NCBI GenBank assembly: GCA_023078555.1
Contig: CM041203.1
Coordinates: 4,610,538-4,674,537, forward strand
From: Ulva prolifera
Lineage: Eukaryota; Chlorophyta; Ulvophyceae; Ulvales; Ulvaceae
Length of the DNA stretch: 64,000 bases
Direction: 5' to 3'
Under the pieces are notes generated by a model, which worked only from the letters and a program-made list of their open reading frames with translations, did not search any database and was not told the origin of the DNA. The stretch's first letter is position 1; every line of letters starts with the position of its first letter. Below, piece after piece: positions 16,454 through 40,607 of this stretch. Both the position numbers and the translations under genes were made by a program.

Positions 16454-19400
16454 CTCGTGTTCGCCTCTGTAGATATGTTGGACACCTGCAGGTGGATCAA
16501 TTGTGCAATCAACAAAGCCAAATTTGCCGAGGTTTTGATATGCTTGTGATTTATCAAATGTCTCTATATGAGTCGTTTTCGCGTTGAACCCTCCCCCTTT
16601 TAACAAATATCCGTAGCCAGGTAGACAAAATGCGATGACCAGCCCTACCCCCTACCCCAGCGAGCTCCGGTCAGCGAGGAACACAATGACGCTCACAGAC
16701 AGTGATTCTACCTTGTCCACTCTATCGGGATGCGTGTGGATGTCCGCATGACGCCTATCGCCGAGCAACAGTAGTTCACGTCGCGACTTCTGCGCGATAC
16801 CCGACCTCCCGACACGCCCAAACTGCCGTGAACTTGAATTGTATTTCATCCCGCAACAAGTTTCAAATGATATTTCACATACGAGTGTGGCGTGGTCGGC
16901 ACAGTGACCGCAAGCGCTGCAGCTGCAGACGAGGATTTGCGGGTGCGTGAACCTCGAGTCGCATTGTGCCGCTATTCATGCCACTCTCCAGACATCGACG
17001 AATAGGCTTCTTCAGCGCGGACCTCTAACATCGAGTCAGCGTACCTGCAGCCAGCCCGGGGCAGGTATGTATCGCGGTGAGGAGTGCGTGACGGTTGTAG
17101 CGATCGTGAATCTGAAAATGCTTGGCCTGATTACACGTCGCCCGCCAGTGTTTGCGACAGCTCTACGTCAAAAAACATGTTTGTGAGCTCTTCGACTGCC
17201 AGTCCGACTCATGCACAGGCGCTGTGTGAGGATTACATGGCAATTCTGCGGACTCGGGAGTGGCGACGCGTGACGCACGCTTGACGCGCCTGCGCACCAT
17301 CTTGGCGGCGCCGGAAGTGTCGGAACATGTACAACTCAATCAGCGCTTCAATGCGATGTGTACAGGTCACCCCCGCAGGCACTGCAGTACGCTTGCACCT
17401 ACGATCATGCTGCAGCGCTCGCAGCTTTGGTATGGATTGTCATGCGTCCGGGTGTGCATGCGCGACACGCTCACTTCTCTTCACGTGCGATGCTTTGTTG
17501 CGCCATGGCCCGCCAGGCTCACGCTGCTGCCCCAATGATGGACCGCCATGCGGCCAAGGCAGTGTTGACGGCACTCACAGGCCCGTGCGATGACGCTCTC
17601 GCCGCTCATCGGCGATGGACCGCGGACTCGGCCTGAGCGGCGGGCCCCCCGGCACCTCCCCGCTGCACCTCCTCTCGCCGGCCTCCTGATCCAAACGCCG
17701 CAGCTTTGCGGGCTGTCGCGCGCCAACGCGCTAGCAGCCGCCTTTGCCGTTCGCCGGGATGTCCCGGCACGACCCTAGCGGGTGCTGTGGCCTGGACATG
17801 CCTCTGTCTGACGGTGTGGGGTTCTACCGGCATTGCAGGGCCCACACGCCACGCGGGCTCAACTCCGTTGAAGGGTGAGTTGCCCGGGACGGGGACGAGT
17901 GGGGGCCCGGGGGGGGGGGGTGGGGTGCCGCCCCGCATTACGTGTGGCCGACAGACTCCAAGCGGTCAGCTTAAGCTGTTGGGCCAATTGAGCCACCCCG
18001 GCACACCCCGCAGCAGCCTCCCGGCCAGACTCCCGTGCAGCAGCACATCTTGCCTCCCCAGCCCCGAATGCCGTGACCGTGCCACTGTCTCTCATGGGTC
18101 CCGGGCTCCTCCAAGCACCGCATACGTAGCACATACGGAGCTGCTGTTGCACCCCCAGGAGACGCCCGGCGGGCGTCCGGCGTCGCGCCCCTGGCCGCGC
18201 AGGCCGGGCCTGATGCGGCAGCAGATGCCGTGCCTGATGCCGCAGCAGCCTTAGGGGGAATCCCCCACAGGCTCCTTCGGCCTCTCGGCTGCTCAGTGAT
18301 TGACCTGCATCCAAGGCCGCCCTCTACCTGCCCTGCCTGATCTCGCAGAGGCGCATAGCGTGATGAGTCAGAGTTTCAGCACTGGTGATATTCTCAAGCT
18401 CACTCCGGGGGCACCGATGACAGGCCACGGAGTGCGTCACTCACGCATGAGCGGGCTTGCAGGCCAACGCCACGGCATTGTGCGACGGCGCCGCTGCAGC
18501 CGTTGCTGACCGGCGGACACGTGACAAATACGGTCACGCCTGCGGGGCATTCACCCTGGTCCCACGGCGAGCTTGCCGACCCGGCTCTAGCGATCGAGCT
18601 GATTTTGCGTCCCCCACCAGGCTGGCTGACGTGGCAGCGAATTTGGGCGTGTTGCCAAACACAATCTCTTCGAGAACACGGCATACCATCTGTCCACTAC
18701 CAAACACAAATTCTGTGCCGGGCAGGTGCCCATCTGATGACACGCCATCGCAATTCATCCCGGATTTGCGTTTCCGTGATGATCTCTCACTGTTCACAGA
18801 CCGATTGAAGTGAGCAGAGGGCTCCTCAACTTCACTACACTGGTCCACCTTCCGGTAGCGTGCACGACTCAGTGCAGAAGCTTTGCACAGCGTGTTGGGA
18901 TGCAGCAGGCTTTGTCTATGCTCGGGATGCCTTGGACGACCCTAGCAAGCCAAAGTGTTTGCCATGGCTGGGGTATGCCATGCGGCAGAAGCTACGCTCG
19001 ACATGTGAGCCAGGGAGGGCTTAGACAAGTGGACAGTGTTATGTGCCGGTCTAGGTGCGGAGGTTAGGACCCCTTCTCACATGCCATGCTGTGCTGCCTC
19101 ATGTTCAGCCGTACAGGCTGTGCATGCGGCAAGTGTATTTGGATAAGTGTGTGTGCGGCAGTGTGAAGATTACCCACTATGCATGTGTGAGTAGGTGCGG
19201 AAAGCATGATTGCAAGGGTGCATGGTTGCAAGGGTGCATGGGTGTGAGGTTTGATATATTATGTGCAGTGATGTATGAAGAATATGTACAGGTGTTGACA
19301 TGTGCAATGAATAAATAGTATCCTCTTGTTTTACATTTAGTGTCTGGGAGAGGGACAAGGCATGACACCATCGATGTACATGTCCCTCTCCAAACCTCCC

Positions 19401-20021: not shown

Positions 20022-21044
20022 TTAAGAGCTGGCCTTAAGGTTCTCAATAATGCCCTGCTTGTTTACCAGTTCTTGTGCGACGAAACCGGCGACAGCGATC
20101 ATAGCCAGGCGCCCATTGTTCAGCTCCTTGGTTTGCAAGGTGTTGAATTCCTCAGCGCTGGTGGGCTTCAAGCCCAGTGGGTCAAACCTGCACGAGGCAT
20201 TGTATCAGATCAAATTCAAGAACTGGTAGTGGTGGATGATGTAGCGGTATCACAGCTACATACATTGGCACATGTGCATCACAGGAACTACGATTATGCA
20301 ATTGGAAAATGCATTATGCCGGATGGTAGTTCATGTCGGAATCGTACCCAAGATCACCTGGCGCATATTCATCCCTGAGAGTGAATGTTCCCTTTTCAAC
20401 TGGGTTGGCCCACCCAACTGACACACGGTATGCCTCACAAATGCCAATGACAAGCACCAGGGGCTCCCAGAATCCTTGCTTGGTCTGCTGGAAGTGAACA
20501 ATGGCTGGGCCTGCACAGTCACATTCGTTGGTGTTTTGCTGCACGAAAGTATGAGACAGCTCTATATGTGCAGGTACATTGACAAGAAGGCGTTGACGAT
20601 AGACAGTTCGTACCGCTGATGTTACCCTCCCAGTTCATGAACAGGGGAATGTTCTCTACGGCCTCGCCGGCGAGGAAGCCTAGTGCCGCAAGCATGCTCA
20701 CACGGCCGTGAGTGAGCTCGGCCTCGCGGTAGCGCTTAACTTCCTCGGGTGTTGTCTGGGCGGACATGGACAGAGGATCGAAGAAACCAAATGGACCAGT
20801 GATCCCGTTGAGAGTCTTCGCATCTGCACATCAAGTCTGCTGATTAGGAAGCGCATGACACTCAAATTGCCATGCTTGCGTGAGAAAATATTGGATTTCC
20901 GTGACTGGCGCAGTCGAGACGATCAAAGGTTGACGACCGAGTCGGTACAGGCATACGCATCGCTTTGCGCGACGGTCCACAGGCAAACGGAATGAAGCTG
21001 ACGGACATGAGTAATGTTCCAGCAAACACACATCGAAAATACAT
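20022..21044 (-). CDS. Light-harvesting chlorophyll a/c-binding (FCP/LHC) protein, plastid precursor
   Basis: Four exons, 21044-20921, 20823-20614, 20510-20348 and 20187-20022, with matching phases, encode 220 residues, a normal length for the family. It is a thylakoid antenna protein that binds chlorophyll and carotenoid and passes excitation to a photosystem. Helix 1 has [20 protein letters not shown] with the chlorophyll-ligating E and H plus the conserved R. Helix 2 has [18 protein letters not shown]. Helix 3 has [20 protein letters not shown] with the paired E and N ligands. GPFGFFDPL and [10 protein letters not shown] are the usual loop motifs. The N-terminus ([20 protein letters not shown]) looks like an ER signal peptide followed by a basic, Ser-rich transit-like stretch, as expected for a four-membrane plastid. 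The first donor (about 20920) is the least certain; an alternative lies at 20914. Subfamily (Lhcf, Lhcr or Lhcx) is not assigned. Confidence 0.95.
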
Positions 21045-21385: not shown

Positions 21386-24173
21386 TGAAGATTCTGGGAA
21401 ACACAGTTCGGGACACCAATCGAAGGTGCCAGACTACAGCATATGAGTCGTTAGTGTGGTTGTTTTGGTACATCCGAAGCCGCTTCTGCCAGGTCACAAT
21501 ATCTCGAAAAAAAAGCAGACGGTGACAGCATGGGCATTGCTGTTTTGAGCGCGACACTGCAAGCCGTCGGCAACAGCATCCTCACAGTCTAGGTTAGCGC
21601 TGCAAGCCTGGACCGATCGAACACCTGCCAGACCTGAATCGTGAATTTCGTGTACTTTTAATTGGAGGTACAAGAGCCATGTACATGCAGTGCAAGTATG
21701 GTCAACGCTACAGTGCCACAGCGTTCCCGAGGGATGGCCGTCGATACTGACCACAATAGTATGGTGACGTGTGTTGCACGGCTGACGTTCACTCGAATCT
21801 GTTGCACAACTCGGAACCGCTCAGATCTGCAGGGGTGGGCATTGAATGGAAGCAGGCACAGGACAGCACGTATATCAGTCATAGAATCGTACAGTCCTCG
21901 CCGGGAGTAGCGCGGGCGGCAACCATGCGGTTGTTTGCCGGGCGAGCCGCGACACGGCTGTGGCAGAGAGCAGACATGGCCATCATTGTTGCTGTGTGTT
22001 GTTGCTGATTGAAAGATAGAACTGTACTGCGTGTGAATCTGGTGATCATGGCTGTCAGGCCGCGCTATATATGGATCACGGCGCATGCTGTTCCGCTGTG
22101 TACGCGTGATCCATGTGCTGAGACGCTTTTGCACGCGGCTGGCCACAGACCACATGTGGCTGTCGTGTGTGACTTCCTGCCACACTCCCGAAGTCTCGAC
22201 GGCTTTTTGCAGGAGCATGTGGTAGCCTATCGCGTGCGCAGAGCAGCCGCGCATCTCGGAGATACATCCGTTTGTGAACAGTGATCATCTGAGACCACAA
22301 ACGACGCTACACAACTTTCTTTTTTTTACGTTTTGGCCCGTCCGCCGCACAAAGTGTAAGACCTTTGTGCGGTCGCTGCTCGGCTGTGCTAGCAAATATT
22401 GGCAGGAAAGACCTGAATAAGAATCTGTGCACAGAGCTCGCATGATGGCACGGCTGTTCCGACCGTAGCCGCGTCGCCAGGACCGGCACCGGGCGGTGTG
22501 ACAAACTACGTTAATGTATCACCCATGCCCCAACGCGCGATCTGCATGTATACAGCAATTGCATAGCCTTCAAGCGACTACCTGCCAGACCTTAGTTCTC
22601 CTTGCATGTGGCCAGTCATGTTGTCGCAGTAACACATCACGACAGCGACCTGCTCGAAAGTGCACCGATGAGCTGCGGTATACAACATGACCTAGCAAAC
22701 GCAACCATCTTGACAGATCCATGCAACATAGACACGTCTGTAGATGTCTGCTCTGAAAAATGCCCGCAGCTGGCCTCGTGGACTGCATTCCAGCATTGGA
22801 GGTAGTCCGCGGGTCACAAACAGCGTGATAAAACCATTAATGTTGACGATGGAGCACTACGACAGTGAAGCACGGCATGATCTATGGAAAGGCCAAACAG
22901 TAACCATCATACAAATAGTCAAGACGTCTGTGTATGATCATCCTCCAGGGTAACTTCTTGAGATCACAGTCATGGTCAGAGGCTGCGGCAGGTTCAGAAT
23001 TCCTGCGTGAGCTGTGACACCAACTGCCATGATATGGTCGATGCAGACCATTGTGTGTGTACAGGTGATATTTCTCTCCTGCACAGTGGTGAGACTGCAA
23101 GATGACCTTTGTCCATGGACCACAGCTGGGCATGCAACCAGACGGTCGCAGGCGCAAATGTTGTGTGCACATGTGAAACACAAACAGCGTATACCGGCAG
23201 GCACTTGTGCCTTTTTCCGATCGATGTCGGCTGCGACAAGTTGGGATGCAAAACTGTGTGGCCCACATCCTTTCATCTCGTCATGAACTTGTATTGGAGA
23301 TGAAATTAATTCCAACATCACCAAAAATATCAGTTGCTGCTGGTAACACTGCTCATCATTGCGGGCAACCTGACAACACCTCGGATCCAACAATCCCCAA
23401 CAACAGTATTCATTGAGATGACGTGTAAGAGCCCCACGAAAGTATGCACTCAGGCAGTGCAGAAGCAAAATGATAACACCATAGAGAACGCATATCGTGA
23501 ATATAATCTGTACTCATGTCACCCCGGTGAAGCACAGACAGCGCCATGCACATTTGTGTTCCTACGCTCATGCGGCACACACCTCCTATGCAATCTCCCT
23601 CTTGCAAACAGTATGAAGCACATCTGGCACGTAGACCAGGCATGGCGTTTGCATCTGTTCCATCTATCTCATGCCAGACTCACCAATGCCTACCAGAGGC
23701 ACGCAGCATGTACTTCAACTAGGCAGCCTAGCGTGACACACTGCAGCTAGACTAAGCCATGATTGCAGCAGACACATGTACTTCCACAGTGAGCATCAAC
23801 GTGGAGGCAAGTTGCCGATTGGATCGGAACGCTGTCTTTGCCTGATGCCCGCACCCCCCAGACACTCACCCTGGCAACTCATGTACATCAGTTGGTGTAG
23901 CCCAACAAGGCAGCCGAAACACACTTGAGCACAAGCAGCCAACTGCCCAAGCCTGCACTGATGTCGCATTATGCTTCCTTGCAAGAAAACCCCGCATGCA
24001 TGTGTGCGCGTGCTTGGAGCCACCAGCGCCGCACGTTGACATCAAATACCAGACCGACGGCGCCGAACACACGCTGCAGCCCTGATTGCCACCTCTCAGT
24101 ACCAAGATTGCTAATGCTCTGGCATCTACCACAGGGGACACCCCACCCACAACCCCTAGACCGCTGCCTGGAA
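21386..24173. other. Intergenic stretch, nothing identified
   Basis: Lies between the LHC promoter region and the 3' end of SEL1L. The open frames on both strands are short, cysteine/histidine-rich and without recognisable domains. An A/T-rich run at about 22319-22326 is the only compositional feature. No RNA gene was recognised. Confidence 0.4.
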
Positions 24174-27100
24174 TCAAGAGGGGCTGCCTCCGGCTGACTC
24201 CCCAGCCGCCGCAGACTCGGCCTCGCTTGCCACAGCCGTACTGCTGCTCTTCGCCTCAAGCAAACGGGGTGCAGAGGTCATGTTGCCGCCTGCCGCACCA
24301 CAGGCAGCAGCGGTGGACACGGGGAGCGTGTTGCCCGTGAGTGTTACTGACTGCAGCGTCTGGCACCCTGTGGGATCTAGGTCTGGCAGGTCATCCTCAT
24401 CAGGTGGAGGTGCATGCATGTGCACATCTCCACAATGCGTGGGCGCGTCAAGCCCACTTGCATCGGACCCAGACGGCCGCGCCGGCATCTCCAATAGGGG
24501 GAACCCTGCAAATGCACCACCTGGCGCGGTGGCATCGCCGACAGGGCTGCCGAAACCGAATCCACGGTCATACCCGGTGCTCCCCACATCGGCAGAGCTA
24601 TGACCGATCTGTACCGCTGCCAGCGCGTTGGCGCCTCGAGCCTCTGGCCGTGACACATCTAGCGTCATCTGTGGGGGCGATGGCAGCGGGGCACTCGAGG
24701 CCGAGGCCTGCGCCGCATCGTGGCACAGGTCAAACGACGGGAACGAAAACCCACACACCGGCGGCGCCGCCTCGGCTGGCGCAGAGGCAGCCTGCTCCTC
24801 TGCGGCTTGCATGGAATGGCTGAGGGGTGACGGCTCAGAGAATCCCTCAACTCCAGTGGAGCCACGCAGCGCAGACGTCAGTTGAGAGAATGCTGTCGGG
24901 TGCGGCCTGGGGCCCGGCCCGCCTGCAGCCGCAGGTCCAGCCGCCCCAGGCGCAGCCCAGAACCCTGCCAGCGGGCCAGCAGGCTCAGCAGCCACACTCC
25001 CAAACCCTGCCCAACCTGAGTCCGGGCTGTCTGTGCTTTCACCGCCGGTCGGGGTAGCGGCAGCCATACCACTGCCCCTGCCCACCTGGTCAGCCGATTC
25101 TGGCTCCTCTTCACCCCCCACGCCCTCGTCCATGTCATGCTGCCACCCTGCCCCGCGCAGCCGGTTCGACACCGGCTCCTCCCCCCCTGTGATCTCCCCT
25201 ACCCGCTCATCCGCAGCCGACCCACTCGGCTGTTCTGACTCCGCAACAGCACCGCTGTCTGCCGCCTGCTCCGCACACACGCTGCTCGGCGAGGCGGCAG
25301 GAGGGTCCTGGCTGGAACCAGCCGCATCCACAGCGGCTTGCGATCGCATGCGCGCCATCGCGGCCGCGACGCTGCGCCGGCGCGCCTCATCTACCGCCTG
25401 ATCCATCGCATCTCGCTCACCCGCTGCTCTGTCTCTCGCATCCCTGACCTGCCCCGCCCCTTCATATGCCAGGACAGCACCTGTGCTCGGCCCAGCCCCG
25501 TCGCCGCCGACGGCAGCAGATCTGCGGAGCCCATCTTCGACAGGCAGCTGCTGTGCTAGCGGCGCTGTGGTTGACATGGGATCCTCTGAACCTGGCTCAA
25601 GTGTGTCGGAAAAGCCTGATTCGGAGGTCATCGAGCCGGGGGAAGGCACCAACGGCTGTTCCGCGACAAGGATGTCGGATAGCGCATCATCGTCAGCATC
25701 GTCTGCTAAGTCATCCCCGCCGCCTCCAACCTCCCGCCCCTCCTCTCCCTCCGCTCCCCCAGCAGCGCCTTCGGCGCCCTGGTTACCGTTGGCGCCACCC
25801 CGGCCCTGCGCCATGAGTGCCTCCATCACAAACTGCAGCACGATGCGCAGCACGAGCAACCCGACGATAATCGCCGTGCTCGGCGCGAAGCCCCCATCCA
25901 GCATCAGCATCGTGCGCATGAAGCGCTTCACAAAGGCGATCGCCCCGCCGACCTCCGCACGCACGCGCCCCCACCCCGCGGCCACGAAACCCGGCATGCC
26001 GGTGCGGCGCGGCACACGCCGCGGTGCCGCTGCGTCCGCTGGAGCGGCCGTGGCCCCTGCACCGGTGCCCCCAAGGGGCTGCGACGGCGGCGGCGCGTCT
26101 GCAAAGCTGTCGATCCCCACCTCCCCGGGTATGAAGTTTGACGGCGGGAGGGTCGGCACGTGGAACGCGTACACTGGGTCAATGAGGCGGCGGCTGTGGT
26201 GCAGAGCCCGGCGCACCGCCTCGGCGACCGGCCGCTGCAGCGCGCCGAGGAAAGGGTACGCTGAGGCGGCTCGGCGCCATGCGCGGTGCGCGCGCAGCGC
26301 CGCCACCGCGATCCGCGGCGGCACCCACGCCGGCCCTGCGGCCTCCAGCGCTGCCTCGTAGTGCCGCTTCGCGAGGTTCAGGTCCTGCGGCACCCCCGCA
26401 CCGAACTCGTGCAGGTACCCGAGCGCGAGCTTCGCCTGGATCGGCGCGAACAGGAACGATGCGACGGCGGGGGCATTGCCGAAGCCGGCAGAGGCGGAGC
26501 GGTAGTGTGCGGCAGCGTTGGCGCCGTTGGCGGGGACTCCAAGGCCAAGTGCGTGCGCGTCGGCGAGCGCGGCGTGGGCGGCGGGGACCGCAGTCTTCGC
26601 GCCGTCGCTATCGGACGACGCGACGGTGGCAGCGATCCGCAGCGCGACCTGGGATCCGTACTCACTTGGAGGGATGTGCCTACAGACCAGCTCATGTGTC
26701 AGGACTGTCTGACCTCGGGGCATTGCCTGTGCAAGTGGATCGCGCAAGACGGTGACAAAAACCAATTTGTTTCCCAGTTGTGCTCGCATGCAGGGGTAGA
26801 CGAGCAGATATTAGCACAGCTGCCACGAGGCAGGCGTCACCGTGCGCCAGTGCCTCTGATCACTGTATGCCGGGGCCGGTATCTCTGCGACGCGGAGCAG
26901 GGGCATCGTGGCATGGCTGATTGCAAGGGCAGACTGCTGCAGCACCGGGCGCTCTCAGGGCACTGCTGGCACCATGTAGGCAGCTTGGGCCTGCGGCTGA
27001 GGGCTGCATGCAATCCGAGGCGACTAGGCCCTTTAAAACCGAGCAGCACAGATGAGAGCCATCAGGTCTGCAGGCTGTGCCAACAGCTCATGCAAGAGTC

Positions 27101-30024
27101 CACTTGTGGGCCTGTAGGGAACAAGGGAGGGGGGGAGGCAGGCGCACCCGCGAGCCAGGATCCAGTGCGCGTTCATCAATGCGATCTCTGCACCAGCCTC
27201 CCCGGCCGCGAGGAAATGGAAGAAAGCACGGTGCGCGTTGCCGCGTGTCCATGCATGCCGGCCGAACGCGATGTGGTGGATGGAGGGCTTGCGGAAGGCG
27301 AGGTTCTGCAGGAAGCCGATCGCGCTGGGGCACTGCGGCTTGGTGGTGTTCAGGAGCAGCATCGCCAACGTGTGCATCGCGACAGGGTGGTCCCCCTGCA
27401 ACAGTGCGCCGGCGTCAGCGACATCGTTACAGCTGCACCATGCCCCCCCAGCAGCAGAGGCCATTCACTTGCGTCCGGGGGTGGTCTGCCACTGCATTGC
27501 GCAATCTCCCACACAGCTAACCTGCCAATGGTTGCGGATGCCGGTCAGGAGAACAGTCTGCGTGCTGGGCCATTGGGTATATCGCAGCCCTGGCCCCAAC
27601 CTGGTGTCGCTCCCCTCCACACCAGTTCATTCAGCATCACCTGACCGCACATCCGAGCGTCTCGATCAGAGCAAGGCAAGGTCACCCATGCTCACGCCGT
27701 CAGCGCGCGGCCTGCAGCCTCCACCCACCAACGATCGCTGGTGCTAGTCACCCAGCCCTTCCTGAGAGGAAAGGGGGGACGGGGCTTGACTCCGGGCAAT
27801 GCACCCACCGGCAGGCGAGAAAGCGGGGGCACACGGTGGCGGCCTCGAGGAGGTGCTGCTGCGCGGCGTCCACATTCTGCGGCACGCCCTCGCCGTGCAG
27901 GTGCATCACGCCGAGGTGGAACCGCGCCTCGACGTTGCCCGCCTTCGCGGCCTGCTTGAACAGCGCCACCGCCTCCGCCGGGTCCCGCTCCACGCCTGCA
28001 GCCGCGGCCCACCACCTTCGTTGCCGCTCAGCTCCCACACTACTGCATGCCTACCTCCAGGCAACGCCGACTCGGCAGCCTCGGAATACACCCCTGTAGC
28101 CACGGCGCTGGGACCGCGGGAAAGAGATACTTTGCGCGCTGATTGAAACGCACTGTCTGCGTGAATTGATCTGGCCAGCCATGACGTCTGGTCGCCGGCA
28201 CTGGCAACCGCGCAGCGATCACAGCGGGAGGCGCACCGTAGCCGTGGAGCTGCATGTACCCGAGTCCAAACAGCGCCGAGGCGTCTGCGGGGCCAGACTC
28301 CTCCGAGGCGGCGCGTGTGAACCACTCGATTGCAGTCGCATTGTCCTGTGCAACGCCGCGGCCGTTCGCATACATGTGGCCCACAGCCGCCATCGCAGCC
28401 TTATCCCCTGCACACAGCTCACGTAATGACAAGTCTCCACCGGGCCACCGGCGCAGGTGCCTCACTGGTCCATTCGGAGCTGCTTTCCGGGGTCGGGAAC
28501 CAGCAAAAAGCGAGGGTTGTTGGGCTTGATGGCGGACAGCATGTGTGGCAATGCAGTGACATGACCACGAGACTGCTATGGCATGCAGCAGGCTGGCAGG
28601 GCGCACCCGCTTCAGCAGCCTGCAGGAAGTACTTCATGCCCTCTGAGGGGTCCTTCGGGACGCTGCGGGAGCCCTGTGTAAGGAAGGTGCCGGTGTGGCG
28701 GGCGTAGTCGACGCTGCCCATGTCCGCGACTGCTTGGAAGAAATGCACCAGGTCCCAGTCGGACACCGACTGTGTGGCAAAGTGGTCGTTGCTGAGCACT
28801 GGGATCAGCACCTGCACACCGCTGGGGCGACCTGGGGTGCTGAGCTCGGAGCTGCACTGTGCTGTGGATGCCGGAGACGTGAGGGATGCACAACCTACGG
28901 TGAAAGAGACTAGTACTTTACTGGGGTGCTGGCTCATGCACAGGGTGGAGATCTCTGCTGCTTTGTAATCAGACTGTCAGTGGGATTAGTACTGCAGCGG
29001 TTGATACAGTAAGCTGCTCTGTCAACTCCTCTCAAGTTCACAGACCGCAGTGAATTTGACTCGAGGATTTGGATGTCCAGGTCGATGACTACAGAGATTC
29101 AAGGCATCAAAGCAGTTGAAAGCCTAGATCATGACTACCTGAGGGAGAGAGAGACACAACAGCCGACTCTAGGGTGATCAGGCCCACCATCCCAGCATGA
29201 CCGGCACAAGCAGGGTGGAATCGCAGGTGATAACATACCGGCGGAAGCTTCTTCGTCGTGTCTGTGACTTGACTGATAACCTCATCTGCAAGAGGCTGAA
29301 AGTACATTGATGCGGAGGGGCACACATTTGGGACACCCAACCCACGTCTGAACTTGTGGCCAAGAGCCGCCCTACCGAAGGCATCGCCCCCAGTCGCTGA
29401 GAAGAAAAGATGTGTGAGTGCTGCGGTTTCGTCTGGAGCATCGAACCCACCAAAATCAGCTCTGGAGTTCATAGGCGGCGGCGTCATGCCATACAACTGC
29501 ACTAAAGCCAGCTCTCCTTGAGCTTCTGGATTACCAAGAGCTGCTGCAACCTCACGGAGTTCCCAGATGAGCCTGTACACAACGAACCTGGGAGTTCTGC
29601 TGCCACAGCAGAGCACCATGACAAGCGCTCCGCAAGTACTGCAGCACTGACACGGCGTGAGATCAAGGAAGCACCTGCCACGATGTTGTTTGCTGTATGG
29701 TCTGAGCTTTGCAGGATTTGTTGACTCGAGCACGCGTAAGCTCACTGCAACCGCCATCAGGGCTTCATGTGGCACATCAGATGCCAGGTGCACTCCGGAG
29801 AAGCTCGGAAGACTGCCGCGAGATCCTGTTGCAGAATCTCCAATCATACAGTCCACTATAAAAGTTAGTTCATCTTGGCTTGGCGCTTCTGTCGGATCCT
29901 CGGTTACCATGAGCTTGCGGAGCAGAGTTGAACTGGTCGACGAGCAATTGCTGCTGACTGAGGACACCGAAGACTGTAGAAAACACAAAATGAGGGATGC
30001 AAAGAGACATGATGCCCTCCCCAT
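24174..30024 (-). CDS. SEL1L: SEL1L/HRD3-like ERAD adaptor with long C-terminal tail
   Basis: Seven exons with consistent phases (30024-29726, 29572-29239, 28811-28607, 28407-28237, 27995-27805, 27395-27148, 26679-24174) encode 1317 residues. SEL1L/HRD3 is the ER-membrane partner of the HRD1 ubiquitin ligase, recruiting misfolded luminal proteins for ERAD. A signal peptide (MGRASCLFASLILCFLQSS) is followed by Sel1 repeats throughout about residues 100-600, such as GHMYANGRGVAQDNATAIEW, FHLGVMHLHGEGVPQNVDAA and LALGYLHEFGAGVPQDLNLA, and a FRRGLGVPNVCPSAS block typical of the N-terminal SEL1L domain. One transmembrane helix lies at about 750-772 (TAIIVGLLVLRIVLQFVMEA). After it, about 540 residues of low-complexity Gly/Ala/Ser/Glu/Asp sequence extend the protein far beyond the roughly 800 residues usual in yeast and human; most of this tail is in one 2.5-kb exon. 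Most introns here use GTGCGC donors and TGCAG acceptors. Confidence 0.93.
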
Positions 30025-31448
30025 ATTGATCAAAGCAGTCCCTCGGGTTCCTGGACCGAGAAGCGAGTGCATACGACACGGCATCATCACCACTCTGTGC
30101 ACAGCTCAAACAGGCCAGCTGGATGCCATTTTCACAATATAGACACCTTCATAGCGCTATCACAACAAGTGACGGCAGCGTGATCACAATTGCTGTAACA
30201 TCACTTGCGTCTTCGCAATGCCTACTGGATCTATGCATACCCGGTCGCGGCCGCTACAGATTCGTAGCGTGGGTACGTGGCCTCGGGTCACAAAGTGATT
30301 CTGTGATATATGTACATTGTTACAGCTTCTTGAGCGCTTTGCGACTCAAAGCACGACTTCGGCAAGATAATCTCGTTGTGTCGCCACGTGCAGCCGGATC
30401 GCGCGCTACTGCTTGCAAGCTCGTGTATGCGTTGGGCGGCAACATTGTCAGATGTCCTTGTAACCAAGGCTGAGACTTGAGATCTTTCGTGCTTGGCTGT
30501 AGCTGCCTGCGGACTACTCTTGCGTGCAACACTGCCCGTCGCCCACCCCCTGCGGCCGCAGATAATCCGATCAGTGGACTGATTGACGATTGTATACTTC
30601 ATTCGTAGCAGCAGCTATGAACGACGAGGTCTTCACTGGTTTCTGGGTGATGGTGTCGTTCGCGATCATTTGTGTCGCGTTCATCAAGGCCTTCAACTCA
30701 TCCTTCTGACGTACGACCCAATTGTAATGCCGTTTGCCAAGTACGCGTTGACTTGTTTGATGGGTGAGTGACACTGATCTGGATGTGTTCGGCGAAAAGT
30801 GCGGGTCAATGCGAGAACATGTTTGTAGATGCAGATGAGGCCGCCAAGATGACACCCGAGCGCTTTAGGCAGGAAAAGATGGCTTGTTCTGCTGGAATGG
30901 CTGTGCGCAAGAGACAGTAGACACCACAGCAAGGTGTCGTCTTGCGCGTATGGACATGTTTAAACTGACATCTAGACTCTGTAACTTTTGAAAGCGCTAA
31001 TCATGCGAACTTGATGTTAGTCTACAGCTTCGCGATGATACTGGCCGTGTATCTGTGAGACACGCCATCCCGGCAGCACTGCAGCTATTGTTTCCAGCTG
31101 CATAACCCCCCTTTGTCCACGAATCCAACGCTTCAACCACCTTTCTTGTTCTGTCGAGCTTGGAAGAAAGGATTTGCCTGTGCATCATTTATCACGTCTT
31201 GTGGTGCTGGAACCATACATCAGAAGAAGACGTCTTCCATCAGCAGCATGACATTGACTGGCCGCGGAGTTCATGCGTCTGGGGTTGATCAACCTTAAAT
31301 ACAGTATAAATAGGCGATGATCATGGATACACATCGTACACATGTTTATCTGTCTGCCGTGTTGATCAATGTGCCATATTGTTGGGCAAAACGCCATGAT
31401 TCCATAGAACCTGCCAGCATAATCAAGCCAAATTGTGGGAGCATGTAC
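30025..31448. other. Region between SEL1L and the thioredoxin-like gene
   Basis: Contains the probable 5' flank of SEL1L and the 3' end of the thioredoxin-like gene. Part of it (31000-31440) may hold one more C-terminal exon of the latter, but no unambiguous one was found. A possible 30-codon ORF is listed separately. Confidence 0.4.
30617..30709 (+). CDS. Possible 30-residue single-pass membrane microprotein
   Basis: ATG to TGA encodes a 30-residue peptide whose middle, FWVMVSFAIICVAFIKAF, could form one transmembrane helix. Its layout (acidic N-terminus, one helix, short polar end) resembles small membrane subunits of the OST4 or photosystem type, but no family is recognised. It could equally be a terminal exon or chance. 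The opposite strand is also open here (LGKRHYNWVVRQKDELKALM), so which strand codes is undecided. Confidence 0.25.
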   Translation: MNDEVFTGFWVMVSFAIICVAFIKAFNSSF

Positions 31449-32117
31449 CTCTGCTTCGTCTGCGTCTGCAGGGGCTCGTGTCAAATCCATAATCAGTGTG
31501 CTCAGCAGTGGAGTGTTTGCTCCAAATACTATGTTCTCCTCTTTGCATACTCCATTCTGCAAATTGCAGTCCATTTGTTGAAAAGAGAAACACACGCACG
31601 TATGAAGGTGCTGCTTTAAAGGTGGATGTCTACAGTCCATGTGAGGCCCAAACAGGCAGTGTCCAAAATAGCCATCACAGTCAGTCCGAGATGCTAATTA
31701 CCCTGAACAGATGAAACACAGGCTCCGAATTCCCTCGGTGGGCCACAGCTTCGGGGAGCAGCTCGCAATTATCTGCGCAGACCTGTAGCAGCACACGCAT
31801 GCTCCGTTGGTCCCAGCAGCGCAGTGGTCCAAATCTACACCGTCCAGTGGCGCACTGTGAGAAACTTCAGAAGGGCTTCATCGTCTTTTTCCAATCGAAT
31901 GCGTTTGAACGTAGGCAATACGCTCTTGCATGGTCCACACCACTGTGAGTAAAGCTCCACCACTGCAGTGCAGCTACCATGTCACATGCAGAGCGCACTA
32001 GTCGCAGAGGATTACTTCACCTTGCTGAGCACCTTTCAGCCCGGGTTCGCTAAGGTGTTGCTCAAGCACGTCGTCATCTTCCACTTCATATTGCAAAGGA
32101 GGCAGCTTTGCAGCCAT
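31449..32117 (-). CDS. Thioredoxin-like outer-dynein-arm light chain
   Basis: Exons 32117-32021, 31962-31856, 31782-31702 and 31556-31449 join in phase to give 131 residues; the C-terminus may continue in a further exon after a GTACAT donor. The first exon is acidic (EVEDDDVLEQHL). Exon 2 has the thioredoxin core VVELYSQWCGPCKSVLPTFK with a canonical WCGPC redox site (Cys41 and Cys44), then KRIRLEKDDEALLKF. Exon 3 reads VCADNCELLPEAV, and exon 4 FGANTPLLSTLIMDLTR, the usual final strand and helix of the fold. The CKSVLPTFKRIR pattern with a DDEA loop matches the axonemal thioredoxins known in Chlamydomonas as outer-arm dynein LC3/LC5 and in animals as the thioredoxin part of NME8/NME9. The expected role is redox sensing on the outer dynein arm. 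It is transcribed divergently from CYB5D1, another axonemal gene. Confidence 0.87.
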
Positions 32118-32572
32118 TTTCTCTCAGACAAGCTCACTCAAAGTCAGGGAGCCGGTCACAAATTTGCTGCAGCTGTCCCTCACAAATACTGCCAAGCAGC
32201 AGTGGCAATGGCCGGCGACCTGACCCCGTTTCCAGCGAACAGATGGCTGATTCGACCGGCATGTAACAAAGCTGTGCACGCAAGCGTGTATAGCGCATCG
32301 TGCACCAGATTCCGGGATTCATTCCGGCATCGCTCCTCTCGAGTTGCAGGCTGCTGGCCCTATTTTGACGAAGGTAAAGACACCGTGGCGAGCAGTGTGC
32401 TAGATCTATAAGCTGGAGCGCGAGATCGCGAATTTCGAAAGAGGATAAAAAAAAATAGCGTCCATGCACTGCGAAGATGTTTATGTGGTCGCTTGCATCA
32501 ATGTTTTCCCGCTAGAGGAGTGATAGGTCGGCTGATACTCCTCCTGTGCATACGCGAGAGCCGTGTTTGGAC
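32118..32572. promoter_or_regulatory. Shared divergent promoter region of two ciliary genes
   Basis: The 455 bp between the start codons of the thioredoxin-like light chain (-) and CYB5D1 (+) must hold both 5' flanks and UTRs. An A-rich run (AAAAAAAAAT, about 32448-32457) lies in it. No defined factor-binding motif was identified. The bidirectional arrangement is inferred from gene positions only. Confidence 0.5.
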
Positions 32573-34432
32573 ATGGTGGGTTTACATCCAGGCACCTTAC
32601 CATACTGTACTCCATACGAAGTTGCGAAACACAGCAGCCCCCAGGATTGCTGGGTCTCTGTGTACGGGAAGGTTTTGGATGTGACCAAGCTAGTGAAGGT
32701 GTGGCAGCATATGTAATGCTGTGGCATAACTGCAGCTTTCTTGCCTGAATGACACAGGCAATAAAGCTTGTAGGAACACAGAGGCGTTTTAGCTGAACCA
32801 ATTCTTCGTTTCGCTGGATCTGACATCTCTCACTGGTACGTCCTTTAGGCTTTCTAGATGTTTGACAGTTCCATACCAGCCGTGCTCCACACAGATTGAC
32901 GCTTGGAGAACTCTTACAGGTTTTCAAAAGGCTCTGATGGCCAGTTGCAGCCCAAGACACATGTGTGCCCAGTGACAAACCTGGTAGTTCCATACTGTCC
33001 GCAGGTGTGCTTCCGCATCTGCAAAGTCGACCGGAGGCGCAGCCTCTGTGCAGACGAATATTTGCATAGTGTGGCTGAGCTACATTGTGAGCTTTACTTT
33101 TGCTCAAGATCTATACAGGGGCGCTTCATTCACGTCGCGGCCACCGCACCGACAACAGACTGGAATTGCGAGATAACTGTGCCATGGTGGAACAATCCGA
33201 AGTATGTGGTGCGTCACTTGGGATCACCAACAACTGGACTGCTGCATGCCCATTCCAACAGGTTGAAGAGACGTATTTGTGCGCCACATTCTTCGGTTGA
33301 GTCCGCTTGGCAGCGCTTCGCCATGTCGGTTCAAAACCTCCAGATCAGTTCGTGCCATCATGCGTACCCTGGTGTATTTCGACGGAGCAATGATTCCATG
33401 CGAGTCTCTTGTGCACCATGCACATCCCATTTTTTCGTCTGCTCTTGTTCCAACTCTCCACTGTTATGCGACCCAAGTTGCACACCAGCACAGCTTGCCA
33501 GAACGTTGAGCCTGCACATGCTGCATTGTCATTGTGGAATCGCTCACGTCTATGCTCTCCAGCCTGAGTCGTTTCACAAGGGCAAATAGTGCCTCTGTCC
33601 AATCATTCTCACACATCCCAACTGGAATTCCACAGCAGCATGTTGACCTGTCAGAGAAAATGCCAGCCGGTTATCCCTTTGCTGCTGCACTGTCCACATC
33701 AGGCGCTGTCATGGCACCAGATTTTCACAATGAGCTGCACATACAATCTCATCTGCTCATGTAGCGGTCGAGACTCCAGTAGTCCTCACAGCAAAACCAC
33801 AAGTCAAATGTGCCTCTCTCGCGCTCTCCTTACAGTAAACTTTGCATTGCCTGCACAACAGCCACCACGTCCCTTTACCACAAAGCCACTCCCGTTGCAA
33901 CCATGAGCCCATGTGCCTCACTCTGATGCAGCGCCTGTGGTGACATATGTCCAGCTGTAGCTCAAGTGTACTGTGCTGACTTGATGACCCTGTCCTGAGG
34001 CCGGTCGCTGTACCTCTAGTGCTGTCTGCCTCTCCGACTTTGTTGTCGTGAGTGTGACTCGTAACACATGTACCCAGCGCCAGGACAGACCCGGTGCAGG
34101 TCGGCCAGCTGCCATCGTCGTGCCGTCTCATCCGCATCAAGAACATGCTCACGAGGCAGGAGGACGTGCTCGAGGTGCCGAGCGAGGAGACGGTCGCGGG
34201 CATCCGGCAGCGCTACCTCGCGCTCAACGCGCACGCTCACGCCTACATCTGGAAGGCCTTCCTCCCGAACGCCGCCGGCGTGCTCGAGCCCCAGGAGGTC
34301 GACATGCAGCGCACGCTCGCGGAGAACGGCGTGCCCGACGAGCGCGCCAACTTCGAGGCCTGCCAGCTTCCCCCCGACTTCTTCGTGCCGGTGCTACACC
34401 TCTTCTGGGCGGACGACCTGACCGTCGCCTGA
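32573..34432 (+). CDS. CYB5D1: Cytochrome b5 domain-containing protein 1 (CYB5D1)
   Basis: Five exons (32573-32698, 32774-32835, 32920-33004, 33119-33205, 34100-34432) join in phase to encode 230 residues, matching the human protein's 228. The N-terminal cytochrome b5-like domain has PYEVAKHSSPQDCWVSVYGK, LDVTKLVKEHRG and FAGSDISHWF. A conserved linker follows (PYCPQGRFIHV, then VPWWNNPKY), and then a ubiquitin-like C-terminal domain: RLIRIKNMLTRQEDVLEVPS, AHAYIWKAF, and the closing VLHLFWADDLTVA, which is diagnostic of this family. CYB5D1 is an axonemal protein linked to control of ciliary beating. EHRG (residues 43-46) sits where classical cytochrome b5 has the haem-ligating HPGG; the second ligand is not obvious. 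The start ATG is the first in frame, just ahead of the conserved domain. Confidence 0.93.
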
Positions 34433-35164
34433 GTACGCCCACCCTGCGTGGCACCGCTGACATCGTGCCTCAGCTTCTCGGTGGCGCAGTTTAAGGTCAA
34501 CATTGTACCTCAGCTTCTGGGTGCCTTGTATCGAGTGTAACCTGAAGGGGAGTTTGCCTGCTGGGGATCACAAAACATGCACAGGCGCTGGTGATGGCTG
34601 GCTGCATGCACGACAGAGCCGCAGGAGGATACAGATGTGACTCAGTAGAGCTGCTGCATTGAGGCGAGGTGTGCTGGGTTGTGATGTGGAAGTCGTGCAT
34701 CAGTGAGATGGTGTCTTTGGACTGAGGTAGGTGTAATATGTGGATCTGGCACAGCAGGAGGTGAGGGCACCTGGAGCTGGCGCCCGTAGCTGCCTCTGGT
34801 GAGAAACAATGGACTGTCTGTATGGATCGATGTGGGGATTCACAGGACCGGAGGATGCTGTTTTAGTGGGCTTTTGGAAATCACAGGGATGCTTGTTCCT
34901 CCAATTCTTGGAGACGGCTGTGTGAGCAGTGGCACCGCGAAAGCGAGATCAATTGGTGCTTTCGGAGCGTGTTCGTTGTTTACGGACCGCGTGGCAGGCT
35001 GTGCACCGCCTGTTTTGTGACTCGCTTGCAAACAGAGCCTCGTATGGAAGCTGTGGCGACTGGTGGACAAGACTGATGGTTCTGTCGAAGCATCACAAGT
35101 CACTGAGAACCATGTTGTGCGGTGACGTGCACCGGGACCTTAGCCAGCTCTCTGTTGGCCGGAA

Positions 35165-35338
35165 ATGGTGAAGCCTGCCCACCATATCTGCGATAGCCTG
35201 AGGCCGCAGCTGCGCGCGGAGCTTGTCATTCATCCCAAGCCAGAATGCCGCTTTGGATTACTTTCGCGACACATCTTTGCTGCACTCCTCCGAGGTGGGC
35301 AAGAAGGTTGTGTTGTCCACAAGCTCAGCTTTCAAGGT
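35165..35338 (+). other. Exon-like segment with strong donor site, unknown gene
   Basis: An open frame containing ICDSLRPQLRAELVIHP ends exactly at CAAG|GTAAGT, a near-perfect splice donor, and the frame stops ten bases later, as expected if the exon ends there. No partner exon or family was recognised. Confidence 0.3.
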
Positions 35339-35820
35339 AAGTTCAAGTGAACGCGGTCCTCTATAGCCATGTCCTTGTCCGACGTTGACAATTTCATAAA
35401 AATGGGACCATGCAACGGAGGGGTGAATCACCTAGAAGTCGCCTTCAGACAGTCATATAGATCTCACAAGGCCTGCACCTGTGCTGAGCATGGTATGTAC
35501 GGCTCATTCGCCCCAGCGCACGCAGTGTCGAACCCACGAACTCCATGCGGGGGTGACAGCTTTCATGTTATCCTCCGGCCATTGCATTCGATCGGGTGGA
35601 CGCTCTCAGTGAGCTACAACCGCATCATCGGAAAGGCAAGTCTTGCCGCAGGCGACGCACAGCAACACAACATAGCCCAACCGCATCACCACAGCCCCCG
35701 GACACACAACAACGATCGAAGATCACCGGGTATGTCAATGGAGCGGATCATCACCCGCTCACACGCGGCTACGTGCACACTGGCGCTGCACTATATATAT
35801 AGCTTCACTATATTTGTGAA

Positions 35821-35939
<119 letters not shown>

Positions 35940-36041
35940 CTTCACAGCACGCTCCCAAGTGCACCGCCTGGCGCCCTTCAAGCACATACACCCACTCACA
36001 AGCACACACACCGCCTCCAGCTCCCGACAGTGCGGCATCGT

Positions 36042-36077
36042 CAGTGCCGCACGATCCAGTGCCATCGTGCGGCACTG
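36042..36077. repeat. 14-bp perfect inverted repeat
   Basis: CAGTGCCGCACGAT and ATCGTGCGGCACTG are separated by 8 nt. Partial copies of the same CAGTGCCGCA word occur on both sides (about 36029 and 36089), so this is a small cluster of nested inverted repeats. Confidence 0.8.
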
Positions 36078-37691
36078 GATTAAATGCATCCAGTGCCGCA
36101 TGGACGCATTTAACCCCCGCCCGCCACCGAGGCAGCTAATCGCGTGGCCTCGCGGCCCCCGCCGGCCGCAAACATGCCGCGCAACGGCACCCCTCCCCCC
36201 GGCCCGGGATACATGCAGAGCCCCTGTTCTTCACCGCTGCGCACCCCGCCGCACGCAGACCCCCAGCCGAGACCCTCCGGAGCAATGCACCTTGTGTGCA
36301 CAAAGCAAACCCACTGGTCCCGTACAATTGCAATGCAGTTGCCGGCTGCGCCGCTAGCCATGCAGATTTCGGGAGCCGAGTGGCGGACCCCGACAGAAGA
36401 TGGCGCCAGGGGGGCAGCCCAGCGCTTCAGCCAGCTGGCCAATGAGCAGAGATGTACAAGAGTCATGCTGTCAGTGTGCATGCATGTCTTCTGAGGTGGT
36501 CTGACGATGCACCCGCTAGGTGGCGGCGGCATGGACTGGGAGCATGCAAGTGTGTCAGTGACGTTCACCAGCCATTCCAACTAGTGCTTGTCAAATCACT
36601 TACACTCGTGTCAGAGAAAGGCATCATGATGTGGCTGTGTGACCCCCTTGACCACATGGTGTACAGGTGGCACTGCAGTTGAGCAAAGCACGCTTTGACC
36701 CGCCAACATGCCTGGTCAAGCATGAAACATATCCACCCCAACGCTCTAGATCTCATTATCTCTATGGAACCGGGCACAGCTGTGGCATCCGTGCACCACA
36801 CAGTGCCCAAGCCTTCCCCGGCAGATAATTCGCACCAGGCACAATATAGGTGCACGGGCAGCTCAGGTCTTGTAAACAAAAGGAAATCTGGTTTAATGAT
36901 CTGAGCTGTATCCTGAAGAGGACATTGACAACTCCGAGTCAACGGGGCCAAGTATGCCAAAGGGGTTATTGTCGGCCACTGCAAGCCTTTGCTAGAGCCC
37001 CCCCGCCCTCACCTATACACGTGCGACCTGTTTGGACTCCAGCTCCGCCGACGCAACGCTGGGCGCCCGCAGCACACATCACAATTCATGCGTCTAGATG
37101 ACCCGCCGCATCGCTGAAATTATTTTGGCAATCACACAGGCTACCAGCAACACCCGTACGCGTAGCACGCCTCGCCAGCAGAAACTTCAACTGCCCCACA
37201 GCCGACCAGACGGCAGTGGCTACATCCGCAGTGACTGTGTACATGCATATGCAGGGCCACTGGGGATTTGCAGGCGATGAGGTCTCGGCGACCACAGCCG
37301 CAGCCTGCTCCAATTCACGATGCATCTCGCGCCGCACCCGGAGCACATGCGATGCTGCCACTAGTTCACCAGCTGGGCCAGGCGGGGGGCATGGTAGGGG
37401 TACCAAGTGCCACCACCACAATTTGCCGCCACCACCGCCGAGCCTGGGGTTGTGCTGTATTACGGCTGCATGCCAGAGACTCCGTTCGCATCAATGGCAA
37501 TGCGAGTGAAGCCCTTCAGTGTGGTCTCACTCACCGGATCTGGGGCTAGTGACGGACACGATGTAAATCATACATTTCTGCATGCGAAATGACGCCCCAC
37601 GTATTTTGAGATACCCCTACCCAAGCGTCCAGAAGGGGGTCTACACGTGCGCATGGACGGGCTGCGATCCTGGCTCGTTCGAGCCCGTCCA

Positions 37692-40607
37692 TCACCCGCC
37701 CAAGCTCACCGGCACGCCATACCCAAGGTACACCACATCATGCGCAAACTGCTGCGCGATCGCGTACGCGGTCCCCGCCGTCACCACCTCCGCCGCGGCC
37801 ACCGCTGTCCCGTTGACGCATGAGTGCTTCACCCCTCCCGCCTCCGCCGTGCCGCGGCCGTTCGTGTTGCGCGGCGCCGGCGCCGCAAAGTCGGTCCCGG
37901 CGCGCGCATTAATCCTAGCAACGATCGCGGCCCACGACCCCTCTAGATCCTCTGAGAATCCGATGTAGTCCACAACGGGGTCCCCGTTCGGCAGGAACAC
38001 ACAGTGGCTCTGGTCGCTGATGTGGGAGTCCACGAAGACGGGCAGGAAGCCGCGGCGGGGGAGGTAGGCGCAGCAGGACTCGGCGGCGCAGATGCGGCGC
38101 ATGCTGTACACGTCCTCTGCGAACTGAGAGAAGGGGAGGCCGCAGCGCTCGAGGGCCGTGGGCGCGGCGCGCTGCTGCCGCCCGGGCCCGGTGCCTGCGG
38201 GCATCCTGCAATGCGGCCGGCTGTCAGCGCGCTGGCGTCCTGGCACCGTGGCCACAGAGCTACCAGTACACCTGGTACCTGGAAGACCTGATCTCAGCGG
38301 TCCAGATGGACATCTAATTTAAGCAGCTCTTAAGCATTGTATTGTCCAGGCCACGCACATGCCTAGCTGCCTTGGAACCATCCTGGTTCAGGGCCTTTGT
38401 AAGATCATCACAATCAACTGACGTGGACGTGAGCACGGTGAGCACCAGCATTCGGCATATGTGGTCCCGTTCGGAGTTGTCAATGTCCAGCAGGATACGG
38501 CTCAGTAAATTCGAAATTTGCTTTACTTTACCAGCAGTATATCAATTAGATGTGCACATGTGTGGTGTCCCCCTGGACGTGTCCAGTTGGCACGTCAGGG
38601 CACGCAGGAGGCACAAGCACGTGTCCGCCCCTGAAACCTCCTCTCAAGCGTCACATTCAAATGAGAACATCGCGCGCACCGTTTGAGGAAGGAGGTTGTG
38701 AACATGGTGTATGCGCTGAGCGCCCGCAGCCAGGGGTTGCGCACAACGGTGAACACAAAGTACTCCCCCCACACCGGCGCGAGCTGCGACATGTGGCCAA
38801 CGCGGCGCAGCTGCCCGCTGCTGCAGCTGCGGCCACACATCTGGTTGCGGATGGCTGCCAGCACCGCCGTCGAGGAGGCCTTCGCGTTGCGCACGTATAT
38901 GAACCTCCACGCGTCACTCACGTACACCTGCACTGCAGCACTGGTCTCATTCTATCTCGAGACGCCAGACAGTCCACCTGAAGAGTGGAGATTCATTGAC
39001 AATTGTAAGAGATATCTTATATGATGTGCGGCGCAGGGCTGGGATCCATCCCTGCACCGCATCTTATCTCACAATGCAACATGCATGGCTGCAGCTCGAT
39101 CTGGTATCAAGCTACACAGATATCTCAAGAGATACAGCGACCCCGCCTCCTGGTCTTGGTTGTCTGTCAACTGGTCCAATAGGATACGGCACAGTAAATT
39201 CAGATTTACTTGACTGTACTGGTCCTTGTGGCCCAGTGACAGATCGCGCGCGGCCCTGAACACCAATGGCTGCCTAGGCAGCTGCAGTGTGCACTCGTTG
39301 CTATGTTGATGACAGCTGTGATAACATTCAAATTCTGCTGCTGCCTTTGGTAACGAATGATTTCATACAACTGTGAGTTTTAGAGGAGTGTCCAGTGTTC
39401 ACAGAGGGCGGCTGCACTGGCTTCCGCTGATCCAGAGGCTGCAGCCCCAAACAGCAGCTATCAACAATGATTGACTCACAGGCATGTAATGAGCTGCAGC
39501 AGCTGATGTTGATTGGCTCCTAAACTGTCATCGTCAGCACTTCTTGGCTCCCAAGGCACTGGTGTCTGCCTCCTTGGCTTTGTCCTTGTAGGACATAGCA
39601 TGCACTGGCCACGGTTGTTCGTTGAGCTGAGCTGTGGTCTTTGACTGCAGCATCTTAATGGCGCATGAGATTATCGAGGTGCATGTGAAATCAGCAGCCG
39701 AGGTATACTTTCTACATTGTTAGCCCTGCCTGCCTTGCACTGTTGTGGTGGAGGGGGTATTGACTACTGCTTGCCACAGGAGTCTGCAGGTGTGAGCAAG
39801 CTTGACCGGACATGACTCAGTAGCCCTCCCCTCCCTTTGTGCAGTGATGCAGGATGCACGGGTTCGCACACAGTGAAACAGCTAGCCACCAGCAGAGCTA
39901 GCGAAATTGCGCATGAGGCAGAGGGCAAAGCTTGAGCAGGCAGGCCTAGGCAGGCAGGCCTGCAAGCGCTTGTTGACCAGATGTAGCATTTGCATCGTCA
40001 GCAGATGCCTCCAATGTCAACTGGTCATTATGCACAGATTGGGGTCGCGTATGCGCTTGGTGTACTTGTGCACGCGGCATGAGCATACAGTGGCCCGCGA
40101 TGCAAGGCATCGTGGACCGACCTAAGTGCAGACGCGGCCGTACCTGGCACGGGATTCACCATCACGACAGCATTCTCATGATTCAGCGTTCCATACACCA
40201 TATGGTACTTCGGTAGTGGTAAGTAAGAAGAGTTGTTGCTAGGCCTCCGTGGCCTACGAGCTCATGCATTCGAATTCAGTTCTGCCATGGGCGCACACCT
40301 GGCACGCAGAGTACACCGGGACACCTGCTGACCGCAGAGAGTCGATTACAGGAACCGATGCTGTCACAGCTGGCGCCTGCCGGATGTTGTAGTTCTTCAG
40401 GACGCTGCCTGCGTTGGCTGGCACCGAGCACAGCAGTTCCTGCAGCGGCGGTTCCTGCGTGGCCCAGATGCGTTCGACCTCGGCTCGAGCAGCAGAATGC
40501 CCCGACTTCAAATCCTCCGCACTGCTTAGTCTCGACCTAGCTTGAATTGGAGATGCCAATATGCCGTGGCATGACAGCAGAAGCGCCACGGCGGTCAGGT
40601 GCCTCAT
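37692..40607 (-). CDS. Secretory-pathway sulfotransferase (PAPS-dependent, family 2-like)
   Basis: Three exons, 40607-40317, 38927-38638 and 38205-37692, join in phase to give 364 residues. It transfers sulfate from PAPS to a carbohydrate or similar acceptor, probably in the Golgi lumen. An N-terminal hydrophobic leader (HLTAVALLLSCHGILAS) is a signal peptide or anchor. Residues 108-120 (YVRNAKASSTAVL) form the 5'-phosphosulfate-binding loop with a catalytic-type Lys. FTVVRNPWLRALSAY (about 157-170) is the 3'-phosphate-binding motif with the RxPxxR-like arrangement and Ser. The C-terminal exon has cysteine pairs (CGLPF, CAAESCCAYL), DSHISDQSHC and the family's closing HDVVYLGYG. The first intron is 1389 bp, much longer than the others in the window. 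The acceptor substrate is unknown; sulfated cell-surface polysaccharides are a reasonable guess for a marine alga. Confidence 0.9.

Follow-up and report, generated by a model that had tools for sequence, protein, structure and literature searches.

A head-to-head pair of predicted axonemal genes, LC3 and CYB5D1, around a 455-bp spacer in Ulva prolifera

We analyzed a stretch of 64,000 nucleotides of Ulva prolifera DNA (the window) together with the genome to which it belongs (88.9 Mb, 44 contigs). Two genes with predicted axonemal products, LC3 and CYB5D1, lie on opposite strands of the window, head to head, and the pair spans 31133-34432. The gap from ATG to ATG is 455 bp (32118-32572), in agreement with the earlier note on this DNA, which had placed the two starts about 455 bp apart on opposite strands. 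The features discussed below are the following.

31133..32117, minus strand: predicted LC3 orthologue, outer-dynein-arm thioredoxin light chain (splice-consistent reading, phmmer, Pfam)
32117-32033, 31962-31856, 31782-31702, 31556-31449 and 31177-31133, minus strand: LC3 exons 1-5, with GT-AG at 4 of 4 introns
32118..32572, no strand assigned: spacer between the start codons, 455 bp, candidate divergent promoter region (presumed role)
32573..34432, plus strand: predicted CYB5D1 orthologue, radial-spoke cytochrome-b5-domain protein (spliced reading, phmmer, Pfam)
32573-32698, 32774-32835, 32920-33004, 33119-33208 and 34100-34432, plus strand: CYB5D1 exons 1-5, GT-AG throughout
32774-32835, plus strand: CYB5D1 exon 2, EHRG loop with His44 (alignments to 1cxy and three CYB5D1 homologues)
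34100-34432, plus strand: CYB5D1 exon 5, compositionally discordant (GC3 105/111)

The spliced reading of the minus strand gave a product of 141 amino acids with a WCGPC motif. Its start codon is the earliest ATG downstream of an in-frame stop. The final 14 codons and the stop codon lie in exon 5 (31177-31133), and the tail reads ANPFFQARQNKKGG. We compared this product with all PDB sequences by phmmer. The best match was 8glv_DO, 'Dynein 16 kDa light chain, flagellar outer arm' (161.1 bits, E 1.3e-46), where residues 1-138 were aligned, C-terminal tail included, at 56% identity. There were 60.7 bits to TXNDC6 and 53.2 bits to LC5, and every other chain scored 45.1 bits or less (thioredoxin h, 34.2 bits). 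The Pfam Thioredoxin family (PF00085) was matched with 36.1 bits (cut-off 23.5). The score to LC3, the alignment into the LC3 tail and the 56% identity argue that the minus-strand gene is, as judged from its translation, an orthologue of LC3 and not of a broader 'LC3/LC5' type, an assignment made by bit score. Of the 'LC3/LC5 type' WCGPC thioredoxin that had been proposed here, the WCGPC motif and the outer-arm type stand, and LC5 is dropped: we tried it as the identity of this thioredoxin and rejected it, with LC3 as the best match and LC5 at only 53.2 bits. The boundary of the gene had been set at 31449, which is correct as the end of exon 4 but not as the end of the gene, as the fifth exon lies further on.

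Exons matching PF00085 are numerous in the genome (n = 38). Among the best-scored candidates there we found one copy of LC3 and no second LC3-grade match. We further observed an LC5-like outer-arm thioredoxin exon at C8:1361578-1361832, and both Chlamydomonas-type thioredoxin light chains seem, from their translations, to be present in this genome. The active site of the LC5-like exon is WCGPCKPCKELCK, and extra cysteines are present. That the thioredoxin of the window is another WCGPC type (LC5, thioredoxin h or a PDI domain), hence that there is no axonemal pair, gains something from the abundance of Thioredoxin domains, but it is hardly credible given the distance from 161.1 bits to the 60.7 and 53.2 bits of TXNDC6 and LC5 and to the rest, the existence of a distinct LC5-like exon elsewhere, and the lack of a better LC3 among the genome candidates scored.

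The product shares with Chlamydomonas LC3 (16 kDa, DLX1; 8glv chain DO) the N-terminus MAA.LPP.QY, the segment WCGPCKSVLPTF, the motifs FLTVCA and GANTP, and an acidic tail ending ..NP... It differs by two additional residues in the KEENIVFGAN strand and by a shorter tail, the whole product being 141 amino acids long compared with 156. The symbols DLX1 for LC3 and DLX2 for LC5 are those of a table in PMC10605206. Available sections of two further papers assign LC3 to the outer dynein arm, where it sits on the beta heavy chain (PMC12338079), and report a redox link for LC3 orthologues (PMC10886578), the latter describing the route from LC3 redox chemistry to dynein as not clear.

On the plus strand, the spliced reading gave a product of 231 amino acids, whose start codon is likewise the earliest ATG downstream of a stop in frame. 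The best PDB match was 7jtk_k (240.4 bits, E 1.8e-70, 50% identity, residues 10-231 of 231 by phmmer), in what we take to be the structure of the Chlamydomonas radial spoke. The same CYB5D1-type b5-domain chain occurs in both 7jtk and 8glv, and three further CYB5D1 chains were matched with 161.5, 160.2 and 157.6 bits. The E-values of the two best PDB matches rule out a chance resemblance for either gene. The protein consists of an N-terminal Cyt-b5 domain (Pfam 45.9 bits, cut-off 23.7) and a CYB5D1-specific C-terminal part. By orthology, this gene is CYB5D1 and its product a predicted radial-spoke component, which bears out the name that it had been given from the first reading, as well as the 3' end at 34432. 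A genome search with CYB5D1 returned its own exons and one match that covers just the b5 domain (residues 16-65; contig C5), with no second copy among the best candidates scored.

We adopted the donor AAG/GTGTGG and the acceptor GTAG/GAACAC (the slash marks the splice site), since with these the product reached the 240.4 bits to 7jtk_k and 45.9 bits to Cyt-b5 given above, with a loop of the same length as in 7jtk. A model with the donor GT/GTGGCA (229 amino acids) scored lower (233.7 bits to 7jtk_k, 38.1 bits to Cyt-b5) and was rejected. When the product was aligned with known CYB5D1 proteins (7jtk chain k, 8glv; human 8j07), H62 of D(I/L/M)(S/T)H, GRF.H, PWW and DDLT were invariant in the 4 aligned sequences. 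It differs from them in a three-residue insert shortly after HWF and in a GC-rich last exon. The title of a 2021 paper by Zhao et al. reportedly links CYB5D1 to redox or heme. The human origin of 8J07 is taken from a label in PMC10886578, and in the available part of PMC10774353 mouse Cyb5d1 is fitted in the stalk or base of RS1 and RS2. The statement that both proteins act in the cilium and both are linked to redox, made before these comparisons, follows from such work on the orthologues (available sections of PMC10886578 for LC3, a paper title for CYB5D1).

Exon 2 of CYB5D1 encodes the loop VKEHRG, where 7jtk has IKANQG and the human protein AQEYKG. In the alignment with 1cxy, a cytochrome b5, His44 of this loop falls on the histidine of the HPG motif, at the first heme-ligand position; Asn stands at this position in 7jtk and Tyr in 8j07, 9fqr and 9e5c. 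In the cytochrome b5 family the HPG histidine coordinates the iron. For the second canonical ligand (VGHS position), we saw by eye no His at the expected offset, and the invariant H62 lies earlier. The Pfam Cyt-b5 score of 45.9 bits compares with 35.6 bits for 7jtk and 38.3 bits for the human protein, the latter two being fragments without the first residues. The presence of His44 depends on the splice between exon 1 and exon 2; this was chosen by similarity to the b5 and CYB5D1 families and therefore favours the observation of His44.

The last exon of CYB5D1 is unusual in composition. GC3 was 105/111 in exon 5 and 67/121 in exons 1-4 (Fisher p = 1.7e-12, exon 5 having been singled out post hoc), and 70/142 in LC3. 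Little of the GC-rich stretch extends beyond exon 5. For comparison, the range of GC3 within genes was determined for 14 dynein heavy-chain loci (median 0.08, maximum 0.28; all 50 of the 50 DHC_N2 segments, 7 with an internal stop counted as is, one locus with a single segment), and the jump at exon 5 was larger than any of them. In the 11 light-harvesting genes with more than one segment, GC3 differed by at most 0.19. The values cover 29 of the 38 light-harvesting matches (17 loci), 2 of 2 RSP3 and 4 of 38 thioredoxin matches; among the 9 light-harvesting matches omitted are the second segments, with in-frame stops, of two genes. Judged by the dynein and light-harvesting ranges, exon 5 is unusual in this comparison. 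Between dynein heavy-chain genes of the same genome, GC3 varies strongly, from about 0.5 to 0.97. The identity of exon 5 and of exons 1-4 to three homologues offered nothing that would explain the GC content, and local GC-biased gene conversion is our guess.

We then consider the spacer. LC3 and CYB5D1 resemble bidirectional gene pairs in lying on opposite strands with no gene recognised between them. In such pairs the transcription starts are at most 1000 bp apart; here it is the start codons that lie within this distance. The ratio of observed to expected CpG reached 0.99 in the spacer, compared with 0.62 across the LC3 gene and 0.66 across 32573-33400 of CYB5D1. CpG was raised in about 32201-32550, nearer to CYB5D1, and approximately 130 bp beside LC3 were CpG-poor. 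There was a single A9 tract (32447-32455). The raised CpG and the A9 tract make the spacer look promoter-like, which is a soft sign. The CpG signal is weak: when the window was stepped through in overlapping stretches of 455 bp and the 1370 with matched GC content were compared, about 230 (16.8%) equalled or exceeded the spacer. A high-CpG centre was found at most 250 bp away from 25% of 5000 random positions, and the LC3 start has none. A similar rise of CpG occurs at the start of a neighbouring Sel1-repeat gene. Around the starts of LC5 and RSP3 elsewhere in the genome the picture, judged by eye, was not clean: the region upstream of LC5 is GC-rich with a ratio of at least 0.83 for more than 3 kb, and near RSP3 ratios close to 1 occur also away from the start. 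We scanned the 455 bp for CTGGGGTG (at most 1 mismatch), for the tub-box (at most 3 mismatches) and for the X-box, in the definitions that we assume for these motifs, and obtained no match.

The surroundings of the pair were analyzed as well. Beyond LC3, the nearest gene that we recognised is non-ciliary. It is a Sel1-repeat gene at 24177-30024 on the minus strand, which starts about 1.1 kb downstream of LC3 in the same orientation; Pfam gave Sel1, and from its translation we presume it to be SEL1L/HRD3-like. Its 3' part is GC-rich. When 30 stop-to-stop ORFs around the pair were compared with Pfam, 6 had a family at E 0.01. For 3 of them the score passed the curated cut-off (Sel1 twice, FAD-binding once), and for 3 it did not (Sel1 in the same Sel1 gene region, DUF6817 and Pkinase). 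No ciliary neighbour was seen among these 30 ORFs, which means little because the genes are intron-rich. Rfam gave 0 matches in 24000-40000 of the window. RSP3 is followed downstream by an INTS11-like gene and LC5 by a YqgF-like ORF in convergent orientation, names that we presume from the translations; this comparison concerns the downstream side, and a true head-to-head comparison would be one of the 5' neighbours. Further observations in the window were a light-harvesting chlorophyll a/b protein gene at 20067-20818 on the minus strand (two PF00504 exon matches), an ORF with an FAD/NAD-binding oxidoreductase motif at 15467-16651 on the minus strand, and a long (AT)n tract at about 35823-35938 with inverted copies of AGCTTCAC on both sides. 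In the whole genome there were 50 DHC_N2 matches of dynein heavy chains, grouped into 14 loci, and 38 exon matches of light-harvesting proteins, and RSP3 was present. With this set of predicted proteins the organism should be photosynthetic and equipped to make motile cilia. Its ciliary proteins have their best matches in Chlamydomonas, a weak sign of a green alga given how few algae the PDB covers.

Relatives of the two proteins were searched for in viral contigs and in prokaryote genome contigs, collections without algal genomes as such. The single CYB5D1 protein had no pattern match in the viral contigs, and with the CYB5D1 alignment 37 stretches were pattern-matched there, 0 of them relatives. 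In the prokaryote genome contigs, 269 stretches gave 0 relatives. The LC3 alignment had at least 600 pattern matches in the viral contigs; among the matches listed were 96 relatives, 80 of which were kept as loci. From their listing (26-50% identity in the best segments) we took these loci for generic thioredoxins, and none was used. In the literature on flagellar divergent pairs, on LC3/LC5 and on CYB5D1, by titles and the starts of abstracts, we found no description of the LC3/CYB5D1 pairing. Chlamydomonas locus numbers for LC3 (DLX1) and CYB5D1 were likewise not found in that literature, and the available part of PMC10605206 gives none for DLX1.

For the likely behaviour of such a pair, Arabidopsis offers a comparison. 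According to the available text of PMC2648788, bidirectional pairs take in 13.3% of Arabidopsis genes. Co-expression exceeded the random cut-off in 170 of the 1392 pairs with expression data, a base rate that calls for caution since most pairs are not clearly co-expressed, and in 11 of the 25 pairs of similar function. The available text of PMC2851598 describes strongly enhanced co-expression for divergent pairs with less than 400 bp between transcripts. As two 5' UTRs have to lie inside the 455 bp, LC3 and CYB5D1 would fall in this class, which makes a shared or overlapping promoter region plausible, with chances perhaps a little better than even.

The explanation that we consider best, and probable, starts from what was directly observed, namely the gene structures, the orthology, the single copies found and the spacing. 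LC3 and CYB5D1 would be two ordinary axonemal genes that stand head to head by happenstance. The spacer would hold the promoters of both and, because it is short, these probably overlap or work as one divergent region. Each gene would be expressed with the general ciliary programme, and the two proteins would act at separate sites, namely the outer-arm beta heavy chain for LC3 and the stalk or base of RS1 and RS2 for CYB5D1. During flagellar regrowth a joint rise of many ciliary genes is to be expected, so that induction at that stage would not tell a shared promoter from the common programme. If 5% of 12,000 genes are assumed to be ciliary and to stand in random order, we estimate that some 7-8 divergent neighbours, whatever their distance, would both be ciliary. 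The overlap of the promoters, the co-expression within the ciliary programme and the absence of a dedicated module are steps that we infer. Two Arabidopsis results weigh against this explanation and favour some real co-regulation, namely the stronger co-expression when divergent pairs lie close together and the 11 of 25 co-expressed pairs of similar function.

It is unlikely that two separate promoters stand back to back without common elements, in which case regulation of the two genes may even differ. The position of the CpG-rich stretch nearer to CYB5D1, the CpG-poor bases beside LC3 and the scan without a match to CTGGGGTG, the tub-box or the X-box would fit such an arrangement, but 455 bp leave little room for two full promoters and two 5' UTRs, and the CpG-poor stretch could equally be the 5' UTR of LC3.

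A selected, co-regulated redox-sensing module, in which one bidirectional promoter would set a fixed ratio of LC3 as dithiol sensor to CYB5D1 as heme sensor, seems to us quite improbable. It could draw on the close head-to-head spacing, on the redox or heme links reported for orthologues of both proteins in the partial sources named above (for CYB5D1, a paper title), on the more frequent co-expression of functionally similar Arabidopsis pairs and on His44, which would fit a redox-active b5 centre. Against it, LC3 and CYB5D1 belong to different axonemal complexes and bidirectional pairs are common, as the Arabidopsis proportion indicates. A dedicated redox unit of the two genes is unsupported. 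Only as a very long shot would we regard the pair as a divergent unit selected and conserved within one lineage of green algae, its single redox-responsive promoter serving both a dithiol sensor in the outer arm and a heme sensor in the spoke. His44 would then endow the spoke protein with a redox-active heme like that of b5, and the arm would be tuned together with the spoke in phototaxis.

In summary, two ordinary axonemal genes that became neighbours by chance remain our preferred reading. The confirmed part of the analysis adds well-resolved gene models of LC3 and CYB5D1 from another flagellate alga, and it offers a candidate divergent promoter for attempts at expressing two ciliary proteins jointly. 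The change to His44 yields a testable prediction on how CYB5D1 holds heme. If the module were real, a single regulatory switch would link the outer arm and the radial spokes in their redox control, which would bear on the way in which the sign of phototaxis is set by redox state.
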